From contig OX485804.1 in the NCBI GenBank assembly GCA_950295325.1, forward strand, positions 68,982,033-69,046,032: 64,000 nt of DNA. The letters run 5' to 3'. The notes beneath the pieces were generated by a model. It was not told the origin of the DNA and made no database searches. It saw only the letters and a program-made list of their open reading frames with translations. Positions 33,321 to 63,439 of the stretch are shown piece by piece. The first letter of the stretch is position 1. Every line of letters begins with the position of its first letter. This DNA is from Polytrichum commune. Its lineage: Eukaryota; Streptophyta; Polytrichopsida; Polytrichales; Polytrichaceae. A program made the translations under genes and the position numbers.

Positions 33321-34754
33321 TTTGGAAGTGTTACAACCAAAAAAAATCGTTGTTTTGATATTTGGCTTCCCGTGTGAAGATTTGTGATGATAAAATCAAG
33401 GTTTGTAGCACAATACCTATGAATCCACACACTTGTGTATTAATGCAATATAAGAAGAAACCCATATTTTAAGAATGCGGTGCACAATACTCTTCTGTGG
33501 AGACATTGGTATAAAATCATACACGGTTCAAAATTGTATTGGAATTTGTATTACTCATCTTTTTAAATCAATTGATTAAAATAAATAAAAATAAAAACAT
33601 TAAATAGGTTGGGTCATAATGTCCTCGACTCGATCTCAAGTATAATATATCTTCATTATGAACATTTGTCATCCATTGTGAATATGCTCTTCAAACTCTG
33701 TGGACATCTATCAAGACTTACCAACTTTAAGCAAAACACTTCAATAAAGGATTTATATTTATAAATTTTCAGTACAATGTCATAAGTAACTGCCTTTTCT
33801 TTGAGAAAGTTATGGAACTCTTGGAATAAATCGTACATACCTATGAAGATGGTGTTTCTGTGTCAATATCGCCCTTCAAATTCACCTCCAACCTCTCATG
33901 ACATGCCATCATTCTTCATGAAGTCCGTGTAATTTCTACAACAAATGTTCTCATTTGCTCCAGCAGAAGCTTCCTAGGAACAACCACTGCCCAACTCAAA
34001 ATAGCAACCAAGTTCCTGCACTCACAAAAACCACCACTGACAAAATTATGAATTCATAGTCCAATGGGTGCTTCCTCAAAGTTCTTTCAGCTTCAGCTTC
34101 AGCTTCATATACCAAATCTTGGATCCAACAAATCGAAGCAACTTTTGAAACGTGCAAAAAAAATTGATGTTCTTTGCCTCTACCCTATGTTCACCGATCT
34201 GGAATGGAATAATAGCTCCTCCGATAGACAAGGAGCCCAAAGAAATCCACAACACCATGCATGACTCCAACTACCGGAACACTGAGCCCCTACCTCTCAC
34301 TAAGGTATGTGGGTGGTATTCGGTTACTTTTCTTGATCAGATCCCTTAATTTCATTGGTGTGTAGTTGGGAGAGATCAAAGAACAACTACCATAAAACAA
34401 ACACATGCTTAAAAGAGATTGAACTAGTACGGTTTCGGATTTCATTAACTACAACACACTCAATAGTGGACACAATTGGGAGGACCTAATATTTCACTCA
34501 TTAAATCAAGAAACATGCACTTCCAATAACCATAACAAAATTAGGGCGAGGTCTGATTTTCGTTCTGAGTTTTGCTGATGCTCCGTCGTAGCTCTGCTCA
34601 TGCAACACAAGTTTCGTTGTGCAAATCTGAACAGCAGAAGCTGGAGAACACGAAAACAGGGAACCCACTGAATAGCACCCACATACCTTTATAGGAGGCC
34701 TTAAGAGGCAGCAGCAGCAGCAGGAACAGATCCTCCACCACACTTGGAAGTTAT
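33321..34754. other. Upstream region of the receptor gene, no further gene recognised
   Basis: Contains only short frames without domains. The promoter and 5' UTR of the minus-strand receptor gene presumably lie in the first part, next to the ATG at 33320. No clear TATA box could be assigned. Confidence 0.45.
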
Positions 34755-42500: not shown

Positions 42501-45050
42501 TGCAGCCACACTCTCCTCGATTCTCGTCAAATTTGCTTCCAGTGCCTGCTCTACACTAGGCCTAACAAGCTTGGACAGAACTGGACAGAGAGCCAGACCC
42601 TGGTCTTCTAATAATGAACAATGACCCAGTGCAATCTGCACACATTCAGCAGCAGCACGCAGACCCCCAGCAGCCGCTGATGAAGACAGAACATGGCGTT
42701 TTACTAAGGAGGCATAGTGTTCAGTTTCAGAACGGGCCCATAACACAAGCTCTGAGGCATAGGCAGGGTCTTCACCAAACACTGCAACTGAATCTCTTGA
42801 AGCCTGCAAGATTTAAATACCGCAAAGAAAACAATATATAATAAGTTAGTTAGGGAAAACAATTCCGCACAAAACCAGCACTCACAAAGTACACTAATCT
42901 GCTGAAACTTGCTAGATGACTAGCAAGAATAGACCTTTAAAAAACAATCATGAACATAAAAAATGCACAGTGGCAAGGGAAGGAAGCATCAACTATGAAA
43001 TACAGTTGCAAGTCATGTAGTCCACTGGAACTCCAAAGTGAACCTCGTTTAATCTCATATAATCATATGTGGCATTTATAATGCATGAGCCATTACTGCA
43101 AAAGCCTAATCTTATTGTTCAATCAAAAAGTTCATCTTAGCTCTATAAGTTGTACTAGCCATCAGAACTGGCATTGGAAGACTCTGCTTGGGGGAGTACC
43201 TGGGCAATGGCAGAAAATACTAACTGCGAGAGGGCAGCAGTGTAAGCTCCACCATACGATGTCCCACTAGGACGCAAGCTTCTGATGTTATGCTGGAGTC
43301 TCTCATGGTGAGACTGCAACAAGAGTGTGTGGGCACGCGTTCCATCACCAAGTCTGTCTAAAGCAGCTATTGCTGATCTTAATTCTTTCCCTCGAAAGAA
43401 AGGTTGCTGAATTGCATCTGCAAGCTGCTCGGCCAGCCTAGATCTCCTTTCGGATAAAGCTGTCTGCAAATCTGAAGCTACATCGCGACTTATCCTGCCT
43501 TCATAACCGCTTGAATTTAATCCCTCCGCAACCAATCTGTCCCCGTCATCAAGGGCTGAAAGCGCTTGATCAACCTTCTTCTCAGCTAGAAGTACATCAA
43601 TTATGTCTGGTAATGCCTGGGCCAACCTCTCAACCTCTGTAGGTTCTGGATCATTCTGAGGAAGATTCTTGTCTTGGGTCTCTACCTTAGATGTGTTGCT
43701 TGCAGAATTTGGAGCACCACTTTCTGCTAGACTGCGCACTAGAGCTGCTTGAGACGATAGAAGATTCCTCATGGCAAGTAGCTCCCCTTCAAGATCAGAT
43801 ATTTCTTGTGAAGTTCTGCCGAACATAGCGGATTGAATTTAGAAAAGAGTACAAACGCAAAAAATACTCAAGTACAGCAAGAGACTACTGAATACCAGGA
43901 TTCTTCCTCATAATGAACAGGACTACGCCATAAGCCAGTCCCTTATTGAGCCCTTAACTATGAAAATGATTGTTCAGTGCCTTCATTTTCAAGACACTAA
44001 TCCAAGCAATTCATTGCCCACATTTGTCCAATCCGGTAACAACCTCACCAACAAGGCTAACACAAGACTCAGCTGCCAAAAAGAAGCTTCGACTGGTCAC
44101 TAACTCAAATTCGAATAGAAACTTCTAAATAGCAAGCAAGAAAAATCTCCTCAGAGGCATTCAAAATTTTCTTCACGCCCTAGCCTTATGAAGGCACGCC
44201 CTTGAAATTAGGCAAGGGCGTTCAAAGGAACACTTCACAAAGCAGGAGGCTAAAACAAATAAGAAAAACAAGAGTAGCAGCAATTACAATTTGGAATAGG
44301 CATTAACATAATCAGTGCTAGGGTCACGTATACTGAAGACAAACATGGTGATTCAAAATCACATTAGGTTTTGACTTTGCCATCACTCTAGGGCAGCTTG
44401 TTTTCCAGTCCTGCATACCCTCTCATACAGGCTCTCATACTGGCAATAAAAAAATAAGAAGGGGATGTAATGCACCTAATGAACGCGGCATAATTGGCAT
44501 AAACACTTTTTCGCATTTCCTCGGCAGATGATTTCTTCAGATCCAGTAGGTCCTCGCACAATTTTCTTATGCCCTGCCATAGAAACGCTCAATCAGCCAG
44601 GTTGAGCAGGGCTAAGAAACTCGTATAAATTCAGTAAACATTCTACTCTTGAGCATTCAATGATAAGAGTACCGAGGTACTGAATTCCAACTTTGGAGCT
44701 ACTAGTGAACACTAACACTCTTATATTGTTATCCTAGTTCCACACCCTGCCATAAAGTTTCCATGTACACTCAAAGTCCAAGATTCGGAACAAAATATCC
44801 ACAATCTGGCATACGTGATGATAAGACGCAATACCTTTTCGCTCATAGACTGGCACTTAGATTGCACATAAGTTTGCGCATCAAAATCTTCAGTCTCGAA
44901 CACGGCAAGTTCTTCATGCAAATGGTCGGCGTAGCCATTACTAACAGGAGGAGCCACGGCCAACACACCATTGCTGCCATTCGAATGAAGCACACTTGCC
45001 GGCGCTCCTCCGGCGCTCCGAACCCGGACAGAAGGCTTAACTGAGCCCAT
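39528..45050 (-). CDS. EXO84: Exocyst complex component EXO84 (EXO84B-like), ten exons, 810 aa
   Basis: EXO84 is a subunit of the octameric exocyst, which tethers secretory vesicles to the plasma membrane. Exons on the minus strand: 45050-44835, 44573-44476, 43815-43200, 42803-42348, 42095-41931, 41603-41435, 40967-40729, 40568-40380, 40145-40009, 39675-39528. Every junction has GT and AG and the phases close to 2,433 nt without a stop. Conserved blocks seen include DFDAQTYVQSKCQSMSEK, TSQEISDLEGELLAMRNLL, SSAAAGGLRAAAECVQIALG, HRFNFMVQDFLEDVAP, LLMRLTETLVIWLSEDQDFW and LQEDEWF near the C-terminus. Length is close to plant EXO84B proteins as I remember them. The start is the first ATG (MGSVKP), conserved in the partial copy at 21759. 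Family known; identity by recognition, not search. Confidence 0.95.
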
Positions 45051-46620: not shown

Positions 46621-47721
46621 TTGACTTATTACACAACCAAAGGCATTGGTAGGAAAGCACGACGAATCGTGGCAATGCCACATGTCTATGAATTGTTTTT
46701 ATCTATATAAATATAGTTGTTTGCAGTTATAATTGACTTATTATTTGTGTGGTTTCGTGCTTTCCAAATTCCAATGGTAATCGGTTGAAAGTTCAACATC
46801 TATAAATAGCGAGTAGATGCCATTCCCATTGGAGGTTCAACTCTTCAATGGAAGTTGCACCTTGACCTCTTGTGGATGTGAACAACAACAAAGGATGACC
46901 CATTCATATCCATATATAAGGTAGGCATGCTTCGGGGTTTATTCTTAAATGGACACATGTATTTGAGTGGTTTATGGTTGGGTATAAATCTAAGAACAAT
47001 CACAACATGTGTGTGTGTGTGTGTGTGTGGACAAAAGAGACAATGCTATATGCTTGAAATTTGTTCATCATTCAAAACGCAATAGTCAACATAAATTGGG
47101 GGGAGGGGGGGGGGGGGGAATATGATCATTTACCATTAACTCATATAACCTTCGTTTGATAATGAATAGAATGTTCATGCATTCTCTGAACATGCACGGT
47201 TTGGATTTGCTAATCATCTACAATAGAAGAAAACTTGTCCATTACAACCGTCTGTTGCAACTTGGCCATTGCTACTCATGCCGTAAATAGCATAGATGAA
47301 CCCATTTTGGTTGTGGTTTTTAAATAATTAGTAATTGAAACCCTCTGGTTGACAATCAAAATGATTTATTAATGTATTTTCACGTCATGAGTCACTATGA
47401 CCAAATCGCAATAGACAATTGTAATAAACAAGTTTTCTTCTAGTGCCCATATCCTACAAGAAGTGAGTATAGAGAGAAAAATCCGTTTAAGACCTGCTTA
47501 CCTTAACATCTGTCACTCTCGTTCACATGTAGGCATGGGGATCAACATTAACTTTGAAATAGCCTTAACCTCATATGTAGTTTATGTTAAATTACCTTAA
47601 CCTCATATGCATTGCAGTAAAAAGAACCAATAAGTGAGTTATTTTGCAAATCACATAAGCGGACCGGGTGTTGAGATTTATTAGCATTTTACGTTTGTGA
47701 GATCAATACGTGCTATTAAGT
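46621..47721. other. Intergenic with simple repeats
   Basis: Holds a (TG)n run at about 47008-47030 and a G-run interrupted by one A at 47098-47118. No gene recognised. Confidence 0.6.
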
Positions 47722-47733
47722 TGAGTGCTATGG
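47722..47733. repeat. Target-site duplication, left copy
   Basis: TGAGTGCTATGG, identical to 60930-60941, directly before the start of the non-LTR element. Confidence 0.8.
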
Positions 47734-47875
47734 GAAAAAGTTCCAATGCACGTTTGAAGAGCGGGATGAGGGCGTAAGCACTAGCGGACGAAGAGCAAGA
47801 GCGGCGAAGTGGAGGCCGGTGGAGACGAAGCATTGCTGGGCGTCTCAGGTGGATTCAACACCGAAACATCACCGT

Positions 47876-48420
47876 GCGTACGAGCTCACTAACGGCTTGG
47901 CTGCAGATCTACAACATACAACACCATGAATTCAAGCATCTGTTGGAAGAGGGTGCCGAATACTGAAGCAGACTGGGCGGCATCCAATTAATGGCTAACT
48001 CCCGGAAGTGTATGTGATAGATCTCAGATTCAGGCAAGCAGAGATCGGGTGCCACCGGTGTACGTGGGCACCAACGGCTGGCTACAGATTTGTAACACAC
48101 ACTAGGGGACTTTAAGCATATGATTGGATCTGGTGTCGAATACTGAAGCAAGCTGGGAGACATTCAGATAAAGGCTAAACTCCCGAAAGTGTGTGTGACA
48201 AATTTTGTGTTCAAGCTAACAGTGCCCGAGCACCACCTTGCGCACGAGGCCACCAACGGCCTGACCACAGATTTGCAAACATACACAAAGGGACTCTGTT
48301 AGATCTGATGCCGAATGTTGAAGCAAGTTGGGCGGCATTCTGATAAAGGCTAACTCCCATACGTGTACGCACAAATCCGTGTTTCAGGGAAGCAGTGGCC
48401 AAGCGCAAACCTGCCTCCGC
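47876..48420 (+). repeat. Three tandem units of about 178-185 bp in the element's 5' region
   Basis: Unit heads contain ACGGCTTGGCTGCAGAT (47893), ACGGCTGGCTACAGAT (48072) and ACGGCCTGACCACAGAT (48256). Each is followed by GCCGAATACTGAAGCA-like, GGCGGCAT-like and TAAAGGCTAACTCCC-like blocks. Such 5' monomers act as promoters in some LINEs. Between 48600 and 48950 the sequence turns into short AGCACCGA-type repeats. Confidence 0.8.
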
Positions 48421-49425
48421 ACCGCCACTCCACGCTCACTGTCCGCACTTCGGAATCAACAGATATTACGAACACTCCTGCGGAGGTGCTCCCTCTGCAA
48501 CCCACATTTCGATCAACGCCCACACTGAGCTCACCGACCACACTTCGATCAACCGACTTCAACAGAGCCAACCCCGGGAGCACACCTCCGTTGGGACCTG
48601 AACCCAAATAGCGCCGAAACGAGCAATACCCGACACAAGCAGCACCGAACTACACAACACCGAAACGAGCAGCATCCAACCCAAACTACATCAACACTGA
48701 ATCAGCACCGAATCAGCACCGAGCTGCAACACCGAGTGCAACATCATCGAGTGCATCACCGAGTGCAGCATCACCAAGATCCAGGTACAAACAGCACCGA
48801 AACGGCACCAGAAGCAGAGGTAGCAAATCCCCAAGCGCAGCAGCACCGAGACTCCAAGCTACATTACAGTCAGCTCCGAACCCAGCATCAACGAGAGTCA
48901 GATACCAGCAACACCAAATCACAAGGGCAACATCATCAAAACTCCAAGGTAAGTTACCGCCACCTACAAAACTCAGTACTATTGAATTTAAGCTTTGTCA
49001 ATACAGTAATAATAAGCTCAATTCCTTGAGCATTCAAAGCAACCCACTGCATGCCTGGGGGCCACTGGCTCCCGGGAGGGCCCCTGCTTCGAATGCCAAG
49101 GTCCGCAGACCACATCAAAAACACTCAATCACATTAGCTCCCCCTAGACACCAAATACCAAAGCTACTAAAGAAAATTTCCCTCACAATTGTATACTTAA
49201 CAACCTTGTGGTGGCATCTTACTCCAAGAAACATGACTGGAGCTTCGAAACCCAGCGCTCGCAATCAAAACCCCAACCCCGAGGTGGTGATGGAGGAAGT
49301 TACGCCTCCGGGCAAGAGGAACTCTCCGCACTCTTCTAAACCATCACACAAAAAAACCCAAGAGCAACACGATATCCCTCTACCGAGATTCATCTAAGAT
49401 AGAATTTTGGTATGGGTACCCGGCC

Positions 49426-50898
49426 ATGGAAACTATTGCATACAAAGCGGGCATCCCACCCATCTCCGTGACCACACTAATTGAGGAATTAGTGGCATCG
49501 GGATATGTTGCAAGTGAGGCGGAAGAGATATGCTCAGCACGCATGTCATTTCCGAGAGTGCAACAAAAGCTTTGGCCAACAAACCGCCCGGACGGCATCG
49601 AAGGCCAACACGTCAACATTACACAACTACCCTTTGACATTGAGGTAAATCTGAAAACCAACCTATCCATGGACTACCACATACTATTGCATTTCGAAAA
49701 ACCCAACACTCCCTTTAGCCAAGAGCAAATCATGAAGAAGATGATAGTGCGCTTTCAAGTCATGCAAATTCCACTTGGGGATCTAATAGGAGAACCAATA
49801 GCAATTCTTTGTTATGGTCCTAAAACGGCTAGAGTATGGTCAGGGATGGCCAAAATTCACCTCAAAAATCCAAGCAAGGATGGCATGGCCCTCTTGAATG
49901 GGAGGAGAATTTTTGCAATTACACTAGATGATGACACTCTCACCATAGCCAAGGTAGCCAAGTCTTACGACCCACTCGCCTCAAGCAACCTTTTGACTAT
50001 CAAGATCCACACTGACAACATCCGCAACCTCGAATCACACCAACTTCTCAAAGCGATCGTGGAAGAAAGCTTCAAGCGCGGTCATGAGTTCGAGCTTACA
50101 CAAGTGCAGAAAGCATCAGGGGAAGCCTATGGATGGCTAATCACGACGTCGCCAGAACAAGTGGAGAAGATCGGCCGCAACAAAATCCCGGTCCTCGGCG
50201 AACTCCTCACTCCGGTAATATCCTCAGGTGATCAACTCTCCCGTGAGGATGTCATTCGCCGCAACTGTCTAGTCTTGCTTGCAAAAGGTCTCAATCTCAC
50301 TAAAGCCACTGAACCAACCACCACAAGTCTACATGCACACTTTGGCACAAAAAACATTGTGTCCGTCTTCTATCCTAGAGCAACAGGTAACATTCACCAT
50401 GGAATAGCAAACGTGGAATGCTTAAACTCGGCCGTGTACAAACAACACTTGAAGAAGTCAGTACGACTTCTAAACAAATGGGTTGTTTTTTCACCACATC
50501 CAAACTCCCTTGACGGAAGTGCAAGGCCTGACGATGCCACATTGAAGAAGTTAGGCTTCACAGACATCAACAATGCCTTGGCCAACACGATCGAAGCCTT
50601 GAAGAATGCCCCCGGTCCAAGCCAGCCACCCCTCACCAAAGCCGACATTGCCACACTTGTGGAAGATGTTGTCTCGAAGGAGAATACTAAGCTAAGGGAG
50701 GAATTCAAGGCGGACATGACACTCCTACGAACGGACATGCGCACGGAAGCACAAAGCTACGCCGACCAAATCAATTTTGAACTCCGTAGTGCTCTCACAA
50801 ACTTGGAACAAGTATTAGGACAAAGCATGCAAGTAGTCAAAAATTTTGTAAGGCCCTCCCTTCCTTCCCCGGATGCACCAAACCCTCGGCCAAACTAG
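49426..50898 (+). CDS. Retrotransposon ORF1 protein, 490 aa
   Basis: An intact frame. The middle part (AKIHLKNPSKDGMALLNGRR and surroundings) is compatible with an RNA-binding fold. The C-terminal 100 residues (LVEDVVSKENTKLREEFKAD) look like a coiled coil, as in trimeric LINE ORF1 proteins. The frame is open for about 130 bases upstream of the ATG. A likely true N-terminus (MTGASKPSARNQNPNPEV, from about 49230) sits in another frame, so a frameshift near 49350 (a run of seven A) is possible. Base composition is normal here, unlike ORF2. Role inferred from position. Confidence 0.75.
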   Translation: METIAYKAGIPPISVTTLIEELVASGYVASEAEEICSARMSFPRVQQKLWPTNRPDGIEGQHVNITQLPFDIEVNLKTNLSMDYHILLHFEKPNTPFSQEQIMKKMIVRFQVMQIPLGDLIGEPIAILCYGPKTARVWSGMAKIHLKNPSKDGMALLNGRRIFAITLDDDTLTIAKVAKSYDPLASSNLLTIKIHTDNIRNLESHQLLKAIVEESFKRGHEFELTQVQKASGEAYGWLITTSPEQVEKIGRNKIPVLGELLTPVISSGDQLSREDVIRRNCLVLLAKGLNLTKATEPTTTSLHAHFGTKNIVSVFYPRATGNIHHGIANVECLNSAVYKQHLKKSVRLLNKWVVFSPHPNSLDGSARPDDATLKKLGFTDINNALANTIEALKNAPGPSQPPLTKADIATLVEDVVSKENTKLREEFKADMTLLRTDMRTEAQSYADQINFELRSALTNLEQVLGQSMQVVKNFVRPSLPSPDAPNPRPN

Positions 50899-51023
50899 TA
50901 GCCAACTACAACTCCATCGCAATAACAACTAGCGTTATAGTACTCAATAGTATTTCAAACCTCACAACTTATCTTCATAAAGTTGTTACACACAACCCCA
51001 TTGCTCAAAACCCATGCTCACCA

Positions 51024-53747
51024 TTGTTTTATGGTAGAACTCCATCCTCACCTCAAGCTCAATACTCCTACAGTTTAGATATCGCATACACTCTACTTCT
51101 ATATGTATCTATTTGTTATATCAATAAAAGTGACTACTATGTGCAAAAATCTCTTCACACCACTCTCAAAATAAAACATATACTCTCAACAAACACAAAA
51201 AACCAAAATCAATATAAATTGGCACAACCATCACACCAAAAATCCAACACCTCCAACATATTCTACTACCCATCAAATACTCTACATAAGAACTACTTCC
51301 AACCATTCCCATCCACCCACATACTTAACACACTACTCACACATATAATCAAAACACCCAAAACAAAACTTTTTCCAATAAAACCCACCCCTCCTAGACA
51401 CACGTACCTAGAAAACCTTACAACACAAGCTTTACTAACACTCATTAAATACATAAACAAACCTAGAATAAAATGCATAATTAACATTCCGAACACATCA
51501 AAATCCTATAAACAAACACCCATCACATACCAAACACAATGGCACTATAGTTTAGACAAAACACACCCCCCGGGGACCTCTCAAAATAAGCAAAAATCCC
51601 ATTACACCTCCCACAAAAAACCACATATATTCTCAAATATCACACTAAACCAAACTTGCTATCACAAAACCCACCACAAGCCCATCATAACTCTTTACCA
51701 TACACTTCCAATTAATCACATACTTTATAGAACTACACATAAAACCTTCAAACACGTGCAATCTAAACTTTCTACATCAAGACCAATACCCATTCAAAAG
51801 GTTTATTTAAACCCTCTTAGCCCCATAACACAAGCTTCGCTAGAATACATTATAACAACAAACAATCCCAATAAAACACATACTCTACGAACCCTCTACA
51901 CAATAAACACCCCCCTAGAAAGCTATAAAAACCTCACACCTACAAATCCTACAAAGCAAACCTACACATACAATTATAACACCATGCAACTACCCATAAG
52001 CATCCCCCCTATAAAACCAAGAACAACACATATACTCACAAAACAAAAATACATAAATAATCAAATCGCACATCCACAAATCAGTGTACTACCCATACAC
52101 ACCCCATCAAAAACAAGAGCAATAACACTCACATATAACCACCCTACCAACTACCCAACTCCTACAAACTCCACTAGCCAAGTAAAAACAAAACCAAAAA
52201 ATAACAACACCCCAACAACCGGCCACTACTTACTCCACCAAAAAGGACCTCCCATCTCAACTATTCCATACTCTATAAAATTATGTATAATCAATCACAA
52301 ACACAAAAAGGTTAAAATTGCACCCAAACACAAAAAGGTTTTAGCCCACCAGCCACACCATAAAAGTTATAAAAACCAATCTACAAACGGAGAGAAACCA
52401 AAAGTAATAAAAATCTACAACATACACCTCTTACCCAAACAACTTGAAGAAATCACACCCATCCTACACTACAATGCCCATCCAACCCACAAACACCCCC
52501 AACCTCACTCAAAATACATATCACATCCAAAACATGGACTCCATCCAAGACACAACTCTCATTCAAAGAGTAAACTTCATCTGAAATATAGAATCCGCTC
52601 AAACCTTAGACTTTACCTTAAAAACAAAGTGCATCCACAACAACGCCGAAAGCATAATACCTACTCAAAACAAGAAACCCAACCTAACCTAGAACCTCAC
52701 CCGCTATCTAAAAAACATCCCAACCTACGCTCAAAAAACACACCATACCCTAGTTTCAAATCCAACCTCCACTCGAAATACAAATCATATCACAAATACA
52801 AAATAACCTTGTCCTACCATCTCCACCACAAGCCAAACCCTATCACAACCAAATGGAAACCACGCATAACTACAAAACACGTACTCCAAGACAACTCCCA
52901 TACACACCTCTTAACCAAATATAACACCCACCAAAACCACAAATCATTCCCCAGAAACCACCCCTACTCAAAACTAAATTTGCACACTAAACAAAAACTC
53001 AACCCGAAAAACAAAGCAACCTCAACCTACCAACCTCACCTCTCAACAAACACCAAAACATACCTACAAAACAAATGCTCCAAAAATAAACCCTACCCTA
53101 ACTTTGAACTCCATCACAAAATCAAAAATCTACTAAAACCTCATACAAAATACCAACCCCACCCAAAAAACACAATGGCCTCGGCCTACCGGCCTCGCCA
53201 CACAAATAATAACAAATACCACTTCATAAATAATTGGAAACCTAATTCAATAACAAGCCAAAAATCTATAAATAATACAAAACCACACTTTTCACCCATA
53301 CAAATAGAAAATACCATACCCGCTATACCTAACCTCTCTACCACAACCAAACTCACAATCAAAATATATCCAAAAATAATCCACTTCCATGGATACTGCT
53401 TCATTACCAAACTAGAACTGCTAAAATGTGGGGACATAGAATCCAACCCCGGACCAATGCCTAACATACTACATACACATCCTGCTACACACAAAAAGAG
53501 AGCCAACATATACTTCATCCCAAACACTATAAAACTACAACCTGAATACCAACACATAGCAAATACATTTGCTCCCATACTAAAAAACACACACCCACTA
53601 CACCATCAAGCAACAAATATCCACCCACATCTACATCAATACATCCAAACACACATGCAATCACCACTAACTCATATGCTATATGCTATAGTCATCACCA
53701 TCCACCCCTCAATAGACACATGCAATAGCATACTAGCCCCACCCTAA
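51024..53747 (+). CDS. Retrotransposon ORF2 N-terminal region, unknown function, ends with a 2A peptide region
   Basis: 907 residues dominated by N, T, K, H, P, I and Y, reflecting a strongly G-poor coding strand. No domain is recognised in the first 790 residues. Short heptad-free repeats such as HPKHGLHPRHNSHSKSKLHL occur. Near the end lies LLKCGDIESNPGP. The frame stops at a TAA (53745-53747) but continues in the same frame into the endonuclease, so the stop is probably a lesion. The true start is unknown; 51024 is only the first ATG of the open frame. Confidence 0.5.
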   Translation: MFYGRTPSSPQAQYSYSLDIAYTLLLYVSICYINKSDYYVQKSLHTTLKIKHILSTNTKNQNQYKLAQPSHQKSNTSNIFYYPSNTLHKNYFQPFPSTHILNTLLTHIIKTPKTKLFPIKPTPPRHTYLENLTTQALLTLIKYINKPRIKCIINIPNTSKSYKQTPITYQTQWHYSLDKTHPPGTSQNKQKSHYTSHKKPHIFSNITLNQTCYHKTHHKPIITLYHTLPINHILYRTTHKTFKHVQSKLSTSRPIPIQKVYLNPLSPITQASLEYIITTNNPNKTHTLRTLYTINTPLESYKNLTPTNPTKQTYTYNYNTMQLPISIPPIKPRTTHILTKQKYINNQIAHPQISVLPIHTPSKTRAITLTYNHPTNYPTPTNSTSQVKTKPKNNNTPTTGHYLLHQKGPPISTIPYSIKLCIINHKHKKVKIAPKHKKVLAHQPHHKSYKNQSTNGEKPKVIKIYNIHLLPKQLEEITPILHYNAHPTHKHPQPHSKYISHPKHGLHPRHNSHSKSKLHLKYRIRSNLRLYLKNKVHPQQRRKHNTYSKQETQPNLEPHPLSKKHPNLRSKNTPYPSFKSNLHSKYKSYHKYKITLSYHLHHKPNPITTKWKPRITTKHVLQDNSHTHLLTKYNTHQNHKSFPRNHPYSKLNLHTKQKLNPKNKATSTYQPHLSTNTKTYLQNKCSKNKPYPNFELHHKIKNLLKPHTKYQPHPKNTMASAYRPRHTNNNKYHFINNWKPNSITSQKSINNTKPHFSPIQIENTIPAIPNLSTTTKLTIKIYPKIIHFHGYCFITKLELLKCGDIESNPGPMPNILHTHPATHKKRANIYFIPNTIKLQPEYQHIANTFAPILKNTHPLHHQATNIHPHLHQYIQTHMQSPLTHMLYAIVITIHPSIDTCNSILAPP
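53403..53456 (+). other. 2A-like ribosome-skipping peptide
   Basis: Codons for ITKLELLKCGDIESNPGP include the consensus D(V/I)ExNPGP. 2A peptides make the ribosome skip the bond between the final glycine and proline (here between 53453 and 53454), releasing the upstream protein. They are known in several AP-endonuclease-type non-LTR retrotransposons. Here it would free the upstream region from the nuclease/RT polyprotein. Confidence 0.88.
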
Positions 53748-55460
53748 AATTACCACTTTAACGACATATGGACCAACACATTAATTATTAGACTAGCTAA
53801 CCTCACCAACCCCCCCGAAAGGCACATATTGACACCTCACCCCTACACAACATTTGTAGGAAACAATCAAGATATAATACTCCCAAAAAATTCAATACAC
53901 ACAGAAATATATGAATTCATTCACAACCAAGATACTACACCCACACCCATCACCCTCCAAAACAAATTTACCTTCTTCCCAAATAAATTAATCACTGAAG
54001 CACTTCGATGCCTAGAAAGCATAAACGAATACTCGCACCCACCCCCAGCTACTCCCGCACCAACCATAAGAATCAACACACATACTGTATACGAAACAAA
54101 CATAATAACATGGAATGCATCATCACTCAACACTTCACTGCCAAACCTACAAAGCCTAATAAACAATTCGCTAAACAACACAGCAATCATACATATCCAA
54201 GAAACCAAACTAACTACAAACAAATCTACAAAATACATACAAAATCTATTTCCGGAATTCAAACTCATTTTTAACAACACACATGCACTTACAAGATGCA
54301 TACAACAAAGAATGCCCTATACACCCGGAAGAGGAGGCCTACTCACACTTATCCACAAAAAATATGCATTCCATGGGAATATTACCAAAATTCCCACACC
54401 AGCAAATATCTCCCCATACCTACAAATAATTAAAATAAACAATCACCCACTAATACCTTGGCTAATAATACATATATATATACCTACACACTTAGAAGAC
54501 ATACACCTCCTCCCACACCTTAAAAACGAAATCACTAATCAAATCACTATAAACCCCAATCATATATATACATTATGTGGCAATTTTAACCGAGATATTG
54601 CACTTAGAAGAAGGCAAAATAACAACATTAACACCCCCCCACAAAAAGAAGACTACCAATGGAAAAAATTTACGACATCACTCAACCTAAAATATATCCC
54701 AACTAACACTCGCATCACCAGACAAGGAGGCTATAATTACACATCAACAAGTCTAATAGATGGATTCTACATCCACTCACCAGACAACAACAAATTCATC
54801 TCCACCACAAATACAAATATAAATCTAAACTCAGACCATTATCCAGTTGCACTACATATCCCCCACAACACCCTTATAGCCAGATCCCCACCCATCACAA
54901 ACATGTCACCAACTAGAATACTAAATCCAATACCATCAGAAAATATCGAAAAATTCAACATAACATTCTTCGAAGAAAACTCTGCCCAAATAAAAACCCT
55001 TACCACATTACTAGAAAACCATCAACACTTAACCCCGGATCAATGGGTAGAAGCCTGTACAACATTTGACTATATTGTAAACAAAATTTCAGAAACAATT
55101 GAAAGAACATGTAAAGCAGACCCGTTACCAAACCTTACGAGTAGAACATCACAACAAGGTGGTTTCCTGCCACAAAAACTGGCCAGAGAATGGAAAAGAC
55201 ACCTCAACACATATCACCTTATAAGAAAAACCATATACATTGCACAACACGATCCACTCTGGCAACCACACCCCATCCTAAACAATATACGAAACCATCA
55301 ACACACAAACATCCCACACCCACCTATCACAACGACACCCCCTACTGAGTGGATTAATATCATAGCAATCATAGCAAAAAAAGAAAATAAAGAAGCCAGA
55401 AAAATCACCACAAAATACACCAAAGACTGCATTCTAAAAGCCGTATCAAAATACAAATAA
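53748..55460 (+). CDS. Retrotransposon ORF2: AP-endonuclease domain
   Basis: In frame with the preceding region. Motifs in order: ITWNASSLN (about 54105), IIHIQETKL (54190), GRGGLLTLIHKKY (54330), LCGNFNRDI (54575, where GDFN is usual, so an active-site Asp may be lost), YNYTSTSLIDGFYI (54735) and NLNSDHYPVALHI (54820). This enzyme nicks the target for primed reverse transcription. The C-terminal 200 residues form the linker to the RT. A TAA at 55458-55460 ends the frame, which continues in phase. Confidence 0.85.
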   Translation, partial: NYHFNDIWTNTLIIRLANLTNPPERHILTPHPYTTFVGNNQDIILPKNSIHTEIYEFIHNQDTTPTPITLQNKFTFFPNKLITEALRCLESINEYSHPPPATPAPTIRINTHTVYETNIITWNASSLNTSLPNLQSLINNSLNNTAIIHIQETKLTTNKSTKYIQNLFPEFKLIFNNTHALTRCIQQRMPYTPGRGGLLTLIHKKYAFHGNITKIPTPANISPYLQIIKINNHPLIPWLIIHIYIPTHLEDIHLLPHLKNEITNQITINPNHIYTLCGNFNRDIALRRRQNNNINTPPQKEDYQWKKFTTSLNLKYIPTNTRITRQGGYNYTSTSLIDGFYIHSPDNNKFISTTNTNINLNSDHYPVALHIPHNTLIARSPPITNMSPTRILNPIPSENIEKFNITFFEENSAQIKTLTTLLENHQHLTPDQWVEACTTFDYIVNKISETIERTCKADPLPNLTSRTSQQGGFLPQKLAREWKRHLNTYHLIRKTIYIAQHDPLWQPHPILNNIRNHQHTNIPHPPITTTPPTEWINIIAIIAKKENKEARKITTKYTKDCILKAVSKYK

Positions 55461-56243
55461 ATGTACGAAAGAAGCCCCAAAAAAATAAATCGGAAAATCT
55501 TCAAGAATACTGAAACCTCACCCCTGGACTCCATCATTGATAGACAAAACAATATACTAACCAACCCAGAAGACATCGCATCAGAAATTTACATACAACA
55601 ATCCATCAGTAACCGTCCTACAGTCCCCACATGCCAATACTAAAATACACACCCTTTACACTGCACATGTAGAGTCCGACAATATCCATGGCATGACCTA
55701 GACGGATACATAATTGACAAGCGAGGAGAACCCCACACCCCTCTACACACGTATTTTGACCAAGAAACATACGACTTTTGTCTTAAAAACCTAAGTAATA
55801 ACAAAACCCCAGACCCAGACAAAATACCTAATTCAATTCTAAAAAATATGCCCCCACGCTTTCACAAATTACTCTTCCTATTATTTAAACACTGTTATAA
55901 ACAAAAACAAATTCCCGCATCATGGAAAACCAGTCTAATAGTATTACTATATAAAAAAGGAAACCCATCACAACTAACAAACCACAGACCTATTGCGCTA
56001 GCTAACACCATATATAAATTTTACACGAGTACACTAACCTCTATTCTATCAACATATGGCGAAAAATACCAAATATTACATGACAGTCAAGAAGGCTTCA
56101 GAGCAGAGAGAAGCACTTCTAGACAAATCCAACTACTCATCGGAGCACTTGAAAACGCAAGACTCACGAACCAAGATATATATATATCCTCTACATTGAC
56201 TTCAAAAACGCCTTTGGCTCTATTGATCACGCCAGACTTTTAG
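55461..56243 (+). CDS. Retrotransposon ORF2: RT N-terminal part (fingers)
   Basis: Continues in the same frame after the TAA. It is interrupted by a further TAA (55641-55643) and then reads PDPDKIPNSILKNM, IPASWKTSLIVLLYKKG, HRPIALANTIYKF and DSQEGFRAERST, matching RT motifs 0 to 3. At the short TA repeat near 56175-56186 the frame shifts, and the RT goes on in another frame. Microsatellite slippage is the likely cause. Confidence 0.85.
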
Positions 56244-59200
56244 CCATAATGAAAGATTTGGGATATCCCACTGATTCCATAAACCTCATAGGAAACATAT
56301 ACTCACAATCCTCAACAATATTCATTGGCGAATACTTCGGAAAAACCTCACCAATCCCTATTCAAAGAGGTACAATACAAGGTGATACCCTTAGCCCATA
56401 TCTATTTATCATATTCCTAGAACCCCTCCTCAGATGGCTACAACAAGGAAATAATGGATACACTTTTGGCACATCAAAAGTAAAAATCTCATTAGCAGCA
56501 TATGCAGATGATCTAGCAGCCATCGCCAATAAACTAGAGACATTACAAACACAACTCAACAAACTAGACAAATTCTGCGAATGGGCAGGAATGGACCTTG
56601 GAATACCCAAGTGTGCAATAACTGGCTGCCCAAACAAATCCAAACTTCACCCCACAACCTTTAAAGCCTTAATCCAATCCACCAATATAAACTACAGGAA
56701 TCAACCTATACCAGTCTTAAACCAACATGAACCATACACGTATCTAGGAATAAACCTTGCACCATCACTCAAATGGAAAACACAAATAAATACTACTACA
56801 ACTAAAATCATCAAACAATGTCAAGCCCTTGCAACATGCCCAGCTACTATGAAACAAAAAATAAACATGGCAGATACAGTCATACGCGCTGGAATAGCAT
56901 ACAGCTTCTATGCAGTACCTTACTCCATACCAGCTATAAAAAAACTAGATAAAAAAATCATAGCACTTCACAAAACGATTTGCGGGATACCCAAATGCAC
57001 ATCTAACATCGCTACACAACTCCCACACAATCTATTTGGAATCGAAGCTTTCTCACTACAAAATGCCTATCTAAGATGCATTGGAGAACAACTACAAAAT
57101 GCCCTCAATGACAAAGGAAGAATTGGGAAAATATATATTGGTCTATTACAATTCATACTCGCCAAATATGGGGATTTTCAAGAAATCACTCACATTAAAT
57201 ACCACCACTGTGTTAGATCACCCATCACTAGAACATTGTTCTTGCTCAAACATAAAGCCGGAGTCCATCTAAAAAGCACAATAAATAACTTTCTACTAAC
57301 CCCATCCTCACTTGAAACTGCATGGATGCAAGAAGCACAAATGATACATGGCCTAGACCCCAACACCTCACTTAAACTACTACACAAACTACTTATACAT
57401 AATATAACCACATTAGACCAAATTACCATCCCTAATGGTACCACTCCAATAAACAAGGACGAATTCAAAATCTACCACTCCACTCCTTCTAAACTTATCC
57501 AAAGCGCACTTAATATAGCTAATCAACTATTCTGCGACCCCCCCTGCAATCAATGCTCCCTACCTTGCCAACAACATCACCCAACAAGATCCCTCAAAAA
57601 CAAATATATAATAAGAAATCACAACATCCTACCTCACACACCGACCGCCCCCGTACACCCCCCTAACCTTCACATCCCCCATCTACCTCCTCCTCCCAAC
57701 AACATGCTTAAAGACCCCCGACAATTTCCCATACACAAAATACTCGATCACAAACAAAAACAATCTAATGACCACAATGGAATAAAAAGAACAATCACGT
57801 CATACCTATGTCAATGGACCACAACAAATAACAATACATATAATAAATGGCGAACCCAAAGGGACCTATACCCCTATTGTGAAGCCAACATATGTAATCA
57901 CAACACACACCTGCTTATCCAATATTACACAGAAAGACAACACAAGCATTTTTCAAACATCATTAACACCTACTTCACCACAGAACAACACCGAGACACA
58001 AGATACGTCACACCAATCACAATGATTCCGTTAGCACATATCTCTATTAGTGAATGCAACCCAGAAAACGACATTGAAACAAACTCTGATACTATCCAAA
58101 CACAATTCGATGTCGCTCACATATACGAAGACAATGGAAGGCATCTCATTACCATCCCGAAAGCTAGACTAACATGGCTATGGAAACAATACCAATTGGC
58201 AAAAAATACCACACATGGTCTAGAACCATCTACCCAATCATTCGAAACTGAAATTGTTTGGCTATACCAAAGATACAAATACTGTATCCCAAAAAACGAC
58301 CCACTCAAAAGAACCCAATATACAATACCAACTCAAATATTGAATCTACTAATTACAACATTCAATATTAACCACTCGTATTTTTCATCTCCAGTTACAT
58401 GTCCTACACAATTCACCCAATTCTACTCACCATTCTCACGAGACATAATATTTGGATCCTTAGGTAAAGTGTTTGACTACAAATGGCAAGGAATCGGATA
58501 CGCACATCCTCACAACCCAACAGACCTACAACAAGCCATTCACTGGGCACGCATGGCGGCCCAAAATGACCCTTACACAATCACTATAATTATATCCCCA
58601 GACAATGATTGGTACCAAAACTCGAACCCACATACAGGCCCATTCCCAGACACACATGTCATTGCCCATTTTGCCGCTGACACAATCACATATGAAGAAC
58701 CAACAATACCCCCCGAGCTCAATATCACAAGGAAAAAACCATCTGCCATGCAAATATTCTGTATCCATCACCAAAATAATAACATAGGTACCTACGAACA
58801 AATGAAGTTAATAAATGACACAACAAATAACCTACAAATACTACAAAGCCACACTCAAATTGCACCACCCACCCCTCCGAACATCACCGTTAACCCTAGT
58901 AAAAAATGGGCTAAATCAAACTACCCAAACACACCCCTACACAATAATATCCCCACCCCACAACTTCCAAACTACCAAACTAACTTACCGCTAAAATTCC
59001 ACCCCCAATTTAGCTACTACACGGACGGATCCTTTATAAAACCCAAAGAAATTGCCCCTGGGGTATGGAGAAGAGAAAGAGCTAGATACGGTATCTATAG
59101 CCCCAAAGGCTTAAATATTGCCAAAAGACTACATGGGCATCAAAACATACTACGTGCAGAAATGATGGCTATACACAAAACACTAAGAATCATCAATACA

Positions 59201-59680
59201 CAATTCCCCAATGAACCCGCATTTATATTCACAGACAGTCTAAACGTATTATACCTACTCAACACACAAATTAAACACCCCACTCTCCATAATAGTCACC
59301 CATACCAAACCACACTCAACTCCATGGTAAAAATCCTTCAAGACCGTATACAGCCAATCACACTATACAAAGTCAGAGCACACGTCAACATTGACGGTAA
59401 TGAAAAAGCGGATAAACTAGCAAAAGATGGGTTAGAATTAGAGCACAGAATTGCCATCCACCCATACGAACATGCCCACGCCACCCCGTACTATTATCAA
59501 AAGGACGTCTGGGCCTCGATGGCAGACGTCCCAGACAAAGGCCCAGTAAGATTCTTAGAAAAACAAATTAAAAAATATGATAGGGAAACCAATATAGCAA
59601 TCATGGCCACACAAACCCCCAACACGTGTAAATGGACAGAAAATATAAACATTGACAAAGAACTATCCAACGAATTCTAG
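56200..59680 (+). CDS. Retrotransposon ORF2: RT palm/thumb, linker and RNase H
   Basis: Begins with LYIDFKNAFGSIDHARL (motif A, about 56197), then QRGTIQGDTLSPYLFI (motif B) and AAYADDLAAIA (motif C, YADD at 56500-56511). A linker of about 750 residues follows, with a CDPPCNQCSLPC cluster near 57535. RNase H then follows: YYTDGSFI (59014), ILRAEMMAIHK (59150), FIFTDSLNVLYLL (59225) and VRAHVNIDGNEKADKLAKDG (59375). All four acidic residues and the late His are seen. An in-frame TAG (59678-59680) ends this piece. Confidence 0.88.
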
Positions 59681-60475
59681 ACAAATCCCTCAATCACAGA
59701 CAAACAAAAATCCTGCCTTATTAAATTCCGCACAAGAACATACATGGGTAATGCTAGAAAACAAATGTTCTTCGGTCACCAGAGGTACCCCTCTATCACG
59801 TGCCCTATATGCAATTCAAATGATCCAGACACTTGGCTACATGTACTACTGAAATGTAACCAACAACATATACACTCACTACGAATTAAAAGACATAACA
59901 AAGCAGTCGGAGAAATTAGGAAGCTCCTAATCTCGTCCGAAAAATCCCGATGCTTTACTCTCATGAATGCCGGTACCTTCAATAATAATCCCCAAGAAAA
60001 TACTGTCCCCAATTGGCTACTCCCCTGCACATGTAACACACAAAGATGTCATTGCAACGCAAGATTTCGACATGATATACTCTGCGTTAAAGGATTACCA
60101 TATCAAAATGACCCACCCATTGACATTGACCCTAACCTCACCATACAATTTATTGAATTCACATATTGTAATGACAGATTCTCCCCAGAAGCAATAGAAG
60201 CAAAAAACAACAAATACAAACCATTGATTGATAGTATCGCTTCCAGAGGATGGAAAATCGAACCACTCATTGTCATCACAGCTGGGGCCCGAGCTACGGC
60301 CCACATCCCATCCATGAAAATACTAGAAGAAAATCTCAAAATACCCATGGTTATTATCAAAAATACCTTTAAAAATATTAATACCATTGCAATACAATAT
60401 GCCATGTCCATCCTCCTTCATAAGAGGAGAATTGAAAACCACCAACCGCTCCCCCAAAACTTAGACCCTCCATAA
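59681..60475 (+). CDS. Retrotransposon ORF2 C-terminus: CCHC finger and restriction-like-endonuclease-like domain
   Basis: Same frame as the RNase H. CPICNSNDPDTWLHVLLKC (59801-59857) is a C-x2-C-x9-H-x4-C finger. A second cysteine group, CTCNTQRCHC, is near 60030. Then FIEFTYCNDRF (60149-60181), KNNKYKPLIDSI and RGWKIEPLIVITAGARA follow the E-V-T...D...K-x2-K-Y...G-W...V-G-A-R pattern of the RLE found in R2- and Dualen-type elements. The frame ends at TAA (60473-60475). Domain recognition is by eye; the RLE call is the least secure part. Confidence 0.65.
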   Translation, partial: TNPSITDKQKSCLIKFRTRTYMGNARKQMFFGHQRYPSITCPICNSNDPDTWLHVLLKCNQQHIHSLRIKRHNKAVGEIRKLLISSEKSRCFTLMNAGTFNNNPQENTVPNWLLPCTCNTQRCHCNARFRHDILCVKGLPYQNDPPIDIDPNLTIQFIEFTYCNDRFSPEAIEAKNNKYKPLIDSIASRGWKIEPLIVITAGARATAHIPSMKILEENLKIPMVIIKNTFKNINTIAIQYAMSILLHKRRIENHQPLPQNLDPP

Positions 60476-60929
60476 AACCCAAAAAACTTATATAATATTT
60501 AAATATCTATTTACAGCTCAGAATGAGGGATTGATGCCGGTTGGTTGGTACAAATTTCCTGCCTTTACTCACTTGCAGCACCAAATCACGTCTTACATTT
60601 TAAACGAGCATACGGACTCGACTGGAATCGAATCCGGAACGTCTTAACTCAAACATCCTCCCACAACCAACCGAGGAATCATGACTTGGTGTTCACTCTC
60701 ATTACAAAACACTAATTATACTTAAAAGGCATGCACCCCCGTGGGCCATGATCAGCCCATGTTATTTGTTTCTCGGTTACTATAGTGTCCATCCTCGAAA
60801 GAGGAGAGTAGTCTTGTCCCAGCTTCCCCATGTCCTGTGGGCATCGGGTTGTTGGCATTACGAACGGACACTCTATTCACGCCGGCCCCCTAAAAGGGAC
60901 CGGAGTTTCTATTTATCTTTCTATCTATC
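60476..60929 (+). other. 3' UTR of the retrotransposon
   Basis: Non-coding, ending in a short CTAT-type repeat tail just before the right target duplication. On the minus strand near 60690-60620 there are weak tRNA-like A-box and B-box resemblances (GGATTCGATTCC). Composition returns to normal here. Confidence 0.6.
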
Positions 60930-60941
60930 TGAGTGCTATGG
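60930..60941. repeat. Target-site duplication, right copy
   Basis: TGAGTGCTATGG, identical to 47722-47733. Confidence 0.8.
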
Positions 60942-63439
60942 TTGTTCTATGGAGGAGTTGTGGCTTCATGGTATTTTAGAATGTTAGCATGATTTGGATT
61001 GTCAATCCTCAATGTCATTAAGGACTTGTGTGGTAGTAGAGAGAGTTTTGACGATGATGTCAACCTACAATTAACGTGAATGAGAGACACTTCATTCTTG
61101 ATCATATCCGCAAGTGTATTGTAGGTATGTTAAACAACCCTAGTAGTGTGGTAGAAATTTAGTGTGGATATAATTAACATGGGCTACACTAAGTTTATAG
61201 TCAAGGTGGAAGTAACATGGGTCTAAAACCTTGGGACTTTCCTTAAATGTTGACGAAGACTTCTGGCCAACACCTCACATAAGCATAAAATAATCACCTT
61301 ACATCAAAAGTAGCACAAAAATAAAACATCACCCACACTAATTTTCTACTAAAAATTGAGTGTGGGCCACAAATTAATGTGGCCCAAGTTAATTACTGTT
61401 ATGAGAATTAGTTTGGGTTCTAGAAACTTATTGTGGCCCACATCAACAAGACTAGTTACTATACTGATCAAATTGCCTCACAAGTTTAATCCTCAAAAAC
61501 TCGGTGAGAGTCTTGTTATCACAATGGGGGAGGGTCACTTTTCTTTGAGAGTTGGAGGAGCCATGTGCATGCGGGACCCTTTATTGAAACCCTCCATATA
61601 CAAAATTTGTACGACCAAACAACGAGACTATACATACAAATTGTAGACTACATAATAGTCTCATGTATGTATACAAAAAATTTCAACCCCTAGAGCAAAT
61701 TACCTCGATTATGTATACAATTGGTAATTTTTGTTTTTAAATGACATTCCTTAACCTCTCCTTGGATATATATATGCTCATGAATCACTTTGTATTGACA
61801 ATGTCATTGAAATATGACGTGATGGGATGACAAATATGGATGTAATACGACTTACGAATCAACACATGTGAATCTATGGGGAGTTATAAGGTAAGTATAT
61901 ATGAAATATACTCATGTTGTGAAAGCCCTTAGAGGGCCTTATGGTATACTTACCTCTCCCAAAGAATTGAGAGTGCGCTATTTATTTGTACAAATCTCGA
62001 GTGGAATAATGTCCCTCCCACATGTATACTTTGTAAGCCAACTTTTTAACCAAAATATTCTTTTGTACATCAACGTGGTATTAAATGGGCTACATTGAGT
62101 GCCCCCCCCCTCCCCATGGGAGCTTATTGTGGACCTCTCTATCAGAGGAAATTGAATTGAGGTGATGCTATTTAATTTTACCACGTCAGAAGTGATTCAT
62201 CATTATCTATTCTAGAAATAGCAAATTCCTTAAAGACAATCTAGTAGCTATTAAGGATTTATGGGTGGGCAATCTTAGGCAACTGTGACAATGGTGACGA
62301 TGTCAATAGAACGGTGTGGACGTTGGGGCAATCACACGAACCAAGTTTCTTTTAGGGGAAGGAAGGGGGGGGGGGGGGAGGGCGACTAAAGAAGGAGACA
62401 TGGTGTGGAATGTATACCTATTATTTGTAGACTCAATGTATTGGCATACATTATAGGCTACATAGGAGTGATGATCATATTCATCATAACATCGACGACT
62501 TTACAAAACCAACTACCCACATGGGTTTACAAGAGAGGCATTATTTAAAGGTAGAAGATAATGCAAAATACACGTAGCTACGTGGTGTTAAATTACTTCA
62601 ATTTGTAGATATACAAGGATGTGTCTAATACAATAAAAGATGAAGCTTATGCTTTGGGTTAAAGCCATCATGTTTTGTTAGATATATGTATGTCAAGCAT
62701 TCCATTTTATCATATTCCAACACATGTGAACACTTGAGGTTGTTTATTACTTATAAGTTTGTACATGTATCTTTATTTTGTGATCTAAACCTTTGGGTGT
62801 TATTTTGGGGGCAACACACACACCATTATATATATATTCAACTTCGTGCTCACTATGTGTGCACTCCCATGTGTTTTCAAGAATCACAAGATGAAATATG
62901 AACCCAAATACAAATACATACTCTATATAGTTGAAGAAATACAGGAGCCCCCACCATCCAAAACCTCGACCTCTTGAGCCTACATTCTCTTCTTTGCATC
63001 TCAATTTACAACCTCAAGCCTCGGGGGGGGGGGGGTAGTCATTGGTTGGAGTAGCAATACACGTGCGAACAAATGATAGGGTATTTTAAAAACATGGGGG
63101 CTAAAAATTATAAATGGACTTAAGAGTAATATAGGGTATCAAAAATGGCACTCGACATCTTTAAAGTACTATAGGGTATGAAATAATAGGTAATTTGGAA
63201 TTATAAGTAATGCAAGCCATTTTTCTATTAACCCAAAGTAGAAATTTACATAATGATAGCATGTGAAAAAAAAAAATTGAAAGTAATACCCCCCTATAAA
63301 ATAGTGGTTGTTCGCACCTATATCCTTAACTTTTTAACACACTGCCCCCCCCCCCCGAGCCTCAAGCACCAAAAGAGTACAATCATAGATCGAGATATGT
63401 TCTTTGCTACACTATATACACTATAAAGTTGTGTGTGGT
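60942..63439. other. Intergenic, no gene recognised
   Basis: AT-rich with several homopolymer runs of G or C (62102-62110, 62365-62378, 63023-63035, 63345-63356). A foldback-like phrase CACACTAATTTTCTACTAAA with its complement lies at about 61333-61368. Short frames only. Confidence 0.5.

Follow-up and report, generated by a model that had tools for sequence, protein, structure and literature searches.

We have analysed a 64,000-nucleotide stretch (the window) of contig OX485804.1 of the moss Polytrichum commune, and have found that it carries a full-length but decayed insertion of a long interspersed nuclear element (LINE) at 47734-60929 on the + strand. The insertion is 13.2 kb long and has a 12-nucleotide (nt) target-site duplication on both sides. 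Its second open reading frame (ORF2) encodes, in order, a 2A-like motif, an AP-endonuclease (APE), a reverse transcriptase (RT), a chromo-like domain, a PCIF1-like domain, a ribonuclease H (RNase H), a CCHC finger and a predicted restriction-like endonuclease (RLE). Very likely, it represents a degenerate full-length copy from a LINE family that is abundant, was recently active and has the plan of the Dualen/RandI group, that is, with APE and RLE in one ORF2. Two unrelated nucleases in a single protein are a rare arrangement, known chiefly from algae. That Dualen/RandI elements carry both endonucleases, as the first-pass annotation of this sequence had stated, agrees with published descriptions (PMC4640811, PMC3636483). 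The same annotation had placed the element at 53829-60475. This interval does lie inside one retrotransposon, but the element really spans 47734-60929 and includes ORF1 and a long N-terminal part of ORF2.

The features of the window copy are as follows, with c1, c2 and c5 denoting copies elsewhere in the genome, A1, A3 and A5 our alignments, and UTR an untranslated region.

47722-47733 (+): 5' target-site duplication TGAGTGCTATGG, with an identical copy at 60930-60941
47734-60929 (+): whole retrotransposon copy, 13.2 kb, limits set by the 12-nt duplication
47870-48366 (+): diverged tandem units of ~180 nt each in the 5' UTR, from self-comparison
49291-50898 (+): main open frame of ORF1, resembling ORF1 of c1 by eye
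50790-60475 (+): ORF2 (open-frame limits), broken here, open across 2625 codons in c1, c2 and c5
53412-53456 (+): 2A-like motif LELLKCGDIESNPGP, NPGP in 22/22 copies read
54099-54875 (+): APE domain, from alignment A3, Exo_endo_phos_2 in the c1 piece and a profile match to exonuclease III
55956-56758 (+): RT domain, RVT_1 (E 1.8e-22) in two pieces either side of a frameshift; in the PDB, the c1 RT is closest to R2
57713-57952 (+): tentative chromo-like domain, placed via alignment to c1, the window copy being outside the Pfam-tested set
58205-58501 (+): PCIF1-like (methyltransferase-related) domain with HPHN in place of NPPF; PCIF1_WW, PF12237, E 5.2e-12
59012-59434 (+): RNase H domain; RNase_H, PF00075, E 6e-12
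59801-59908 (+): CCHC finger, then KRHNKAV (alignment A1)
60026-60055 (+): second cysteine cluster C-x-C-x4-C-x-C (alignments A1, A5)
60062-60424 (+): predicted RLE, with its catalytic positions at 60068-60076 (R/K-PD in other copies, RHD in this one), 60155 (E) and 60203 (K)
60780-60905 (+): conserved 3' UTR RNA structure with a terminal CCGG...CCGG hairpin, 14 copies of families A and B
60906-60929 (+): 3' tail, imperfect (ATCT)n
60930-60941 (+): 3' target-site duplication, same letters as 47722-47733

The window copy is dead, because its ORF2 is broken by stops at 53745, 55458, 55641 and 59678 and by a frameshift near 56.2 kb, and because both endonucleases show catalytic losses found in this copy only. 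These are RPD to RHD in the RLE (R/K-PD in the other ten copies of A1) and GDFN to GNFN in the APE (GDFN in the other nine sequences). The APE and RLE pieces of this copy give no Pfam match up to E 1. The start codon of ORF1 is ambiguous, as an in-frame ATG at 49234 is separated from the frame by a TGA at 49288, and a Pfam scan of this ORF1 gave zero matches.

Copies, families and selection in the moss genome

The genome searched comprises 408 Mb in 64 contigs, with 406 Mb in seven of them. Searching it with the RLE piece gave 5502 first-look candidates. As 145/145 scored matches are full or near-full length (88-100% identity), the match of this piece is not due to chance. A 30-nt pattern from the 3' end occurs 750 times (382+368, at most 3 mismatches), while the reversed pattern used as a control occurs 0 times.

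In c1, c2 and c5 the ORF1 frame has 747 codons and the ORF2 frame 2625 codons, and a further copy, c4, has an ORF2 frame of 2924 codons. Since c1 and c2 are 99% identical across 10.7 kb, the family has probably been active recently. Its subfamilies have the 3' 7.9-8.2 kb in common at 84-91% DNA identity. We have also observed that the first 1.97 kb of c1 and c5 are largely unrelated, apart from 113 bp at 74% identity, although the two copies agree at 99% over 10.7 kb. In the window element, the first 407 bp (47734-48140) have no other match in the genome, and in c4 this part has one. The 5' UTR turns over, through exchange or renewal, faster than the remainder of the element, perhaps by template switching. 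In joined-copy coordinates, the ORF1 and ORF2 frames overlap by 22 nt in c1 (7326-7347) and by 77 nt in c4 (6429-6505), with the first ORF2 ATG sitting 49 and 24 codons into the ORF2 frame, respectively.

Besides this family (family A), two more distant ones have been recognised. Family B consists of L021, open as far as fetched, and ten more loci, most of them with broken frames, at ~58-65% protein identity to c1 in the longer pieces. Family C (L055, 2372 codons) shows 43.7% protein identity to c1 over residues 253-2619. Both keep the order of family A, namely APE, RT, PCIF1-like region, RNase H, finger and RLE. One locus, L030, looks like a mosaic of families A and B, since part of its RT region is 78.7% identical to c1 and its other long pieces 58-64%.

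We have calculated the ratios of non-synonymous to synonymous change (dN/dS, Nei-Gojobori) between the intact copies c1 and c4. The values are 0.072 for the APE, 0.052 for the RT, 0.091 for the PCIF1-like domain, 0.048 for the RNase H, 0.037 for the finger and 0.125 for the RLE. The 2A stretch, with no more than 7 changes, gives 0.081, whereas the low-complexity N-terminal part has a ratio of 0.56. That is, APE, RT, PCIF1-like domain, RNase H, finger and RLE have all been under purifying selection in this pair of intact subfamilies. The low ratios of APE and RLE alike show that selection has maintained the two nucleases along the lineages from which these copies arose.

The two endonucleases and the reverse transcriptase

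An APE ahead of the RT, which the first-pass annotation had proposed, is borne out by profile matches in intact relatives and by alignment A3. When the APE piece of intact c1 was scanned alone, it matched Exo_endo_phos_2 at E 1.5e-4 with 22 bits, under the cut-off of 27.4, and this profile was not listed when the whole ORF2 of c1 or c4 was scanned. Scores over the cut-off were obtained elsewhere, with 32.3 bits for Exo_endo_phos_2 in family C and 25.5 bits (cut-off 24.5) for Exo_endo_phos in L021. With the APE profile, exonuclease III was also found, at E 9e-4 and with 42 positions aligned. Against the genome, Exo_endo_phos_2 gave 150/150 scored matches above the cut-off, the family of each match not being checked one by one. 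Among the 10 sequences of A3 (L024, L025, L027 and L029 were omitted for broken, incomplete or shorter frames, as were the other omitted rows given below), the motifs W-N, E, S-L-I-D and S-D-H are invariant, and GDFN is found in 9, the window copy having GNFN.

The same annotation had placed a CCHC finger and an RLE-like domain after the RNase H, and this is upheld by predicted fold, motif and position, without a significant sequence match. The finger/RLE profile, with family C included, found only two PDB matches, both weak (E 2.4) and both to residues 939-978 of R2Bm, the CCHC region. Though no RLE profile was matched, the predicted fold is nearest to R2 proteins and then to PD-(D/E)XK endonucleases. 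AlphaFold modelling of the finger plus RLE from 11 sequences gave a best model with a mean predicted local distance difference test score (pLDDT) of 67.7 and blocks of 67-89 over residues 121-230. When this model was compared by Foldseek with 350,542 PDB chains, R2 proteins took ranks 1-6, with E from 7e-6 to 4e-4, a probability of 1.00 and query TM-scores of 0.45-0.47, and no other rows reached E<=0.001. The following ranks are mostly viral cap-snatching endonucleases at E>=0.018, which we take to be PD-(D/E)XK enzymes.

The candidate catalytic residues are conserved in the copies: P-D, E and K-x2-K-Y are invariant in 9/9 sequences of A5 from three families, and when A1 and A5 are pooled, P-D is present in 11/12 copies (the window has RHD) and E and K in 12/12. 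Rows omitted here were L025, L026 and L031 from A1 and A5, together with the window, L028 and L030 from A5. Fold, motif and position together support the assignment of the C-terminal part as a predicted restriction-like PD-(D/E)XK endonuclease. The C-x-C-x4-C-x-C cluster at 60026-60055 is also conserved; it lies directly before the P-D motif and is additional to the CCHC finger. No relatives turned up in viral_contigs when it was scanned with the alignments of the RLE and of the PCIF1-like domain.

For the RT, the c1 ORF2 matched R2 (E 7e-30) and RNase H1 in the PDB and no L1 at E<=0.01, while an L1-type LINE of the same genome matched human L1 first (4e-41) and R2 next (1e-22). We further built a tree of 17 RTs with a group II intron outgroup. 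Six dual-endonuclease RTs form one clade (96/92), seven L1-like RTs another (98/99), and two R2 RTs a third (97/99). The dual-endonuclease RTs thus belong to neither of the single-endonuclease clades sampled, R2 and L1-like. The best tree pairs R2 with L1 at 73/47, which is unsupported, and the approximately unbiased (AU) test rejects neither the joining of the dual-endonuclease RTs with R2 (p 0.187) nor that with L1 (p 0.447). The sampling is thin, covering R2, L1-like and group II RTs only, and some branches are long. R2 is represented by two of the five sequences found, those with printed alignments, and an RT-matching plasmid record (NZ_CP104070) and a Caedibacter RT were left out. In that bacterial plasmid record, an unannotated stretch (L062) resembles LINE-type RTs (E 1e-13 and 4e-12), and it may be a eukaryotic contamination or an odd RT.

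The first-pass annotation had suggested that such a moss copy would extend or bridge the Dualen/RandI group. An extension is supported by the plan with APE and RLE. Bridging stays conjectural, because the AU test allows these RTs to be placed with R2 as well as with L1, and because the RTs compared were R2, L1-like and group II ones. Like the moss element, with its PF00075 match, Dualen/RandI elements have both APE and RLE and are listed with RNase H (PMC4640811), and short-repeat 3' tails are found on both sides, those of algal RandI being (ATT)n and (CTATTT)n (PMC3747384) and those of the moss (ATCT)n or (TTC)n. Elements with APE plus RLE have been recorded in relatives of Chlamydomonas (PMC8226300), and Dualen/RandI has been annotated in cryptophytes (PMC12747079). 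For bryophytes no report was found in a partial coverage of the literature, which is weak evidence of absence.

Unlike the algal Dualen/RandI elements as described, the moss element resides in a plant genome with 750 3'-end matches, and it encodes a 2A-like motif and, between its RT and RNase H domains, a PCIF1-like and a chromo-like one. In the Chlamydomonas elements, a cysteine protease is reportedly part of Dualen as described in 2005; no such Pfam match was found in ORF1 of the window copy, c1 or c4, nor in ORF2.

Compared with R2, the moss element has its nearest PDB relatives of the RT there and a predicted CCHC-RLE fold in common with it. On the other hand, R2 has only an RLE, to which the moss element adds an APE, an RNase H and extra domains; its RT lies outside the R2 clade, and the insertion sites described below have no common ribosomal DNA target. 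With L1-type LINEs it has in common an APE upstream of the RT in one ORF2 and target-site duplications, but its RT falls outside the L1-like clade, it has a predicted C-terminal RLE, and the family A tails read are (ATCT)n rather than the poly(A) of L1.

Extra modules, insertion junctions and neighbouring genes

Ahead of the APE and behind a hydrophobic run, GD(I/V)xxNPGP is present in 22/22 copies read, comprising six of family A, nine of the eleven family B loci (not L027 and L029), L055, and six loci upstream of APE matches. The strict form D(V/I)ExNPGP occurs in 12/22 of them, including the window copy (DIESNPGP). The motif lies inside the open ORF2 frame in c1, c2, c5, c4, c1b, L021 and L055, ~220 residues before the APE in c1. 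Motifs of the D(V/I)ExNPGP type are also encoded by other non-LTR retrotransposons, namely trypanosome L1Tc and sea urchin elements (PMC4981915). Unlike in these, the moss motif, recognised here from sequence alone, occurs in a dual-endonuclease element and in a plant. Two copies, L055 (near 177 and 613) and L071, have a second 2A-like motif upstream in another reading frame.

The PCIF1-like domain has the Pfam domain PCIF1_WW in common with PCIF1, a cap m6Am methyltransferase. All 9/9 aligned homologues match PF12237, and against the genome 150/150 scored matches are above the cut-off (697 candidates). Across all the scans, E ranges from 3e-6 in family C to 1e-13. Rows L024 and L028 were omitted from A2, the alignment of this domain. 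In the PDB, PCIF1 is the best match, though a weak one (E 0.03-0.09 over the searches), and the PCIF1-like profile found two matches only, both of them PCIF1 proteins at E 0.03-0.06. NPPF is the catalytic motif of PCIF1 methyltransferases. Unlike PCIF1, the moss domain lacks it: the NPPF of human PCIF1 is replaced by HP(H/P/Y)(N/S/T) in 12/12 family A/B sequences and by FPTD in family C. Judged by these residues, the domain is probably not a methyltransferase.

The chromo-like domain is a tentative lead. Pfam Chromo was matched in 4/13 homologues (best E 9e-4), with the c1 member at 14.5 bits against a cut-off of 25.1, and 6/7 PDB matches of its profile are CDYL-type chromodomains at E 0.16-0.67. 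In the partial literature coverage, no report of a PCIF1-like domain in retrotransposons was found, and none of a chromodomain in LINEs, for which the searches were noisy. Likewise, the 2A-like motif, the PCIF1-like domain without NPPF and the weakly supported chromo-like domain were not found described for Dualen/RandI within that coverage.

Both junctions could be read in 16 copies, namely the window copy, five full copies, and ten pairs where a 5' end could be matched to a 3' end; a duplication is present in each. Ten 3'-junction stretches (L011-L020) without a matched 5' end are outside this set. The duplications measure 11 nt (3 copies), 12 nt (8), 13 nt (4) and 14 nt (1). The insertion flanks differ from copy to copy, and the top-strand cut context reads R^TR, a motif noticed in the same 16 sites on which it was tested: T at +1 in 16/16 (0.0002 after allowing for tail overlap), a purine at -1 in 15/16 (p 2e-4) and a purine at +2 in 13/16 (p 0.008), with positions -7 to -3 being A/T-rich.

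The last 126 nt before the tail have a predicted fold that family A shares with family B. It comprises 29 pairs in 14 sequences, 8 of the pairs being changed on both sides, and its covariation term of -1.84 kcal/mol was computed without a shuffled control. R2 has a structured 3' UTR too, and the moss element resembles it in this respect. In family A and at six family B loci the tail is (ATCT)n; four B loci end in (TTC)n and one in a run of T. Given the junction duplications, the conserved 3' fold and the short-repeat tails, the copies look to have been primed by target-primed reverse transcription with recognition of the 3' structure, the enzyme steps being inferred.

Elsewhere in the window, 23136-33395 (-) holds a 2238-codon ORF of several dozen leucine-rich repeats, adjoining an NB-ARC-like ORF (30364-31464) and kinase-like ORFs (31533-33395). 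Read by eye, this is the kinase-NBS-LRR (nucleotide-binding site, leucine-rich repeat) layout of a resistance gene, which is typical of mosses. At 42288-43838 (-) lie what we take to be exons resembling an exocyst EXO84-type protein. ARAGORN found zero tRNA genes in the window, and the one Rfam match up to E 1 in 47000-61200, sR4 at 20.3 bits against a gathering score of 50, is taken as chance. CCCTAAA telomere-type repeats are present at the start of contig 1, with none where contig 2 ends. These repeats, like the concentration of 406 of the 408 Mb in seven contigs, fit a land plant.

Possible roles of the two nucleases

Several observations weigh against the interpretation of this element as a Dualen/RandI-type LINE with two working nucleases. 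Searches for the RLE by sequence, with phmmer, with two profiles against the PDB and in Pfam, gave nothing significant. The other four AlphaFold models of the RLE are poor (mean pLDDT 33-56), and the R2 rows of Foldseek have rmsd (root-mean-square deviation) values of 7.6-12.4 and come without a target range. Selection was measured on the single intact pair c1-c4, as c1-c2 has too few changes to judge (0-6 of either kind per domain, defined ratios 0.14-1.19) and several synonymous estimates are saturated in c1-L021 and c4-L021. The assignment to Dualen/RandI follows published descriptions rather than algal Dualen sequences. As for the extra modules, H or K replaces the E of the 2A motif in 10/22 copies, the PCIF1-like domain of family C scores 27.4 bits, under the cut-off of 31.1, and the AlphaFold model of this domain is poor (pLDDT 40). 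Finally, the division of labour between APE and RLE is itself putative.

How, then, may two nucleases be used in one insertion? It would be conceivable that only the APE cuts, with the RLE kept as a DNA- or RNA-binding platform. We regard this as unlikely but by no means far-fetched, since the 16 sites have only a degenerate cut context in common, unlike most RLE elements, which are site-specific (PMC4640811), and the dN/dS of the RLE is the highest among the enzymatic domains. However, every one of the 9 A5 sequences, drawn from all three families, retains P-D, E and K, the P being lost only in the dead window copy, and the length of the duplications stays within a narrow range of 11-14 nt.

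Conversely, only the RLE might cut, as in R2, and the APE would be a leftover of an intermediate state after its acquisition. RT, finger and RLE are all most R2-like, and the 3' UTR is structured; yet an APE dN/dS of 0.072, together with W-N, E, S-L-I-D and S-D-H kept in all 10 sequences and GDFN lost only in the window copy (GNFN), makes this a doubtful account.

Still less is to be said for an L1- or I-type LINE of the usual kind, with a zinc-finger tail at its C-terminus that only looks like an RLE. Such an element would fit the missing RLE sequence match in Pfam and PDB, and RNase H is also listed for I-group elements (PMC4640811). It is nevertheless very improbable in view of the top six PDB folds, all R2 proteins and followed at weaker E mostly by viral cap-snatching endonucleases, the conserved R/K-PD...E...K, and an RT outside the L1-like clade (I-group RTs being outside the sample). 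Nested composites do occur in repeat-rich genomes, and the window copy is fragmented, but the idea that the order arose by accident, when an R2-like element inserted into an APE element to give a nested or chimaeric copy, is refuted, leaving next to no probability, by the single open frame of 2625-2924 codons that spans all domains in intact copies and by the same order in three families at 44-64% protein identity.

For the reading in which both nucleases work, we propose the following scheme. Ribosome skipping at the 2A motif would release the low-complexity N-terminal peptide from the catalytic polyprotein, and, as happens in R2, the folded 3' UTR would be gripped by the RT/finger region. 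The bottom strand would be nicked at YA^Y by one nuclease, and the 3' A at the nick could pair with a U of the (AUCU)n tail and so prime reverse transcription. A second cut on the top strand, 11-14 nt away, would complete the integration. Our preferred, putative split assigns the first, weakly sequence-guided nick to the APE and the fixed-offset second cut to the RLE. The PCIF1-like domain would more likely bind RNA, perhaps the cap, than methylate it, because the catalytic motif is missing, and the chromo-like domain may bind chromatin. In its complete form, this amounts to a land-plant LINE lineage in which the APE makes the first nick and the RLE the fixed-offset second cut, a dead captured PCIF1 holds the capped 5' end of the element's own RNA, the chromodomain picks the chromatin and the 2A splits the polyprotein. 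We put this full combination forward as speculation with a low chance of being right in every part.

Two questions are open in the field, namely by what route LINEs moved from RLE to APE and how they cut the second strand, and elements with two nucleases could answer them. The published examples found are from green algae and cryptophytes, and the moss genome adds a plant case. Here 750 3'-end matches, 99%-identical intact copies, three families, mapped junctions and per-domain selection come together, and therefore the assignment of each nuclease to its cut is directly testable. The repertoire of LINEs is also extended, by 2A-like and PCIF1-like modules and perhaps by a chromo module. If the divided labour of APE and RLE holds true, it would make Dualen a working system, not a frozen intermediate.

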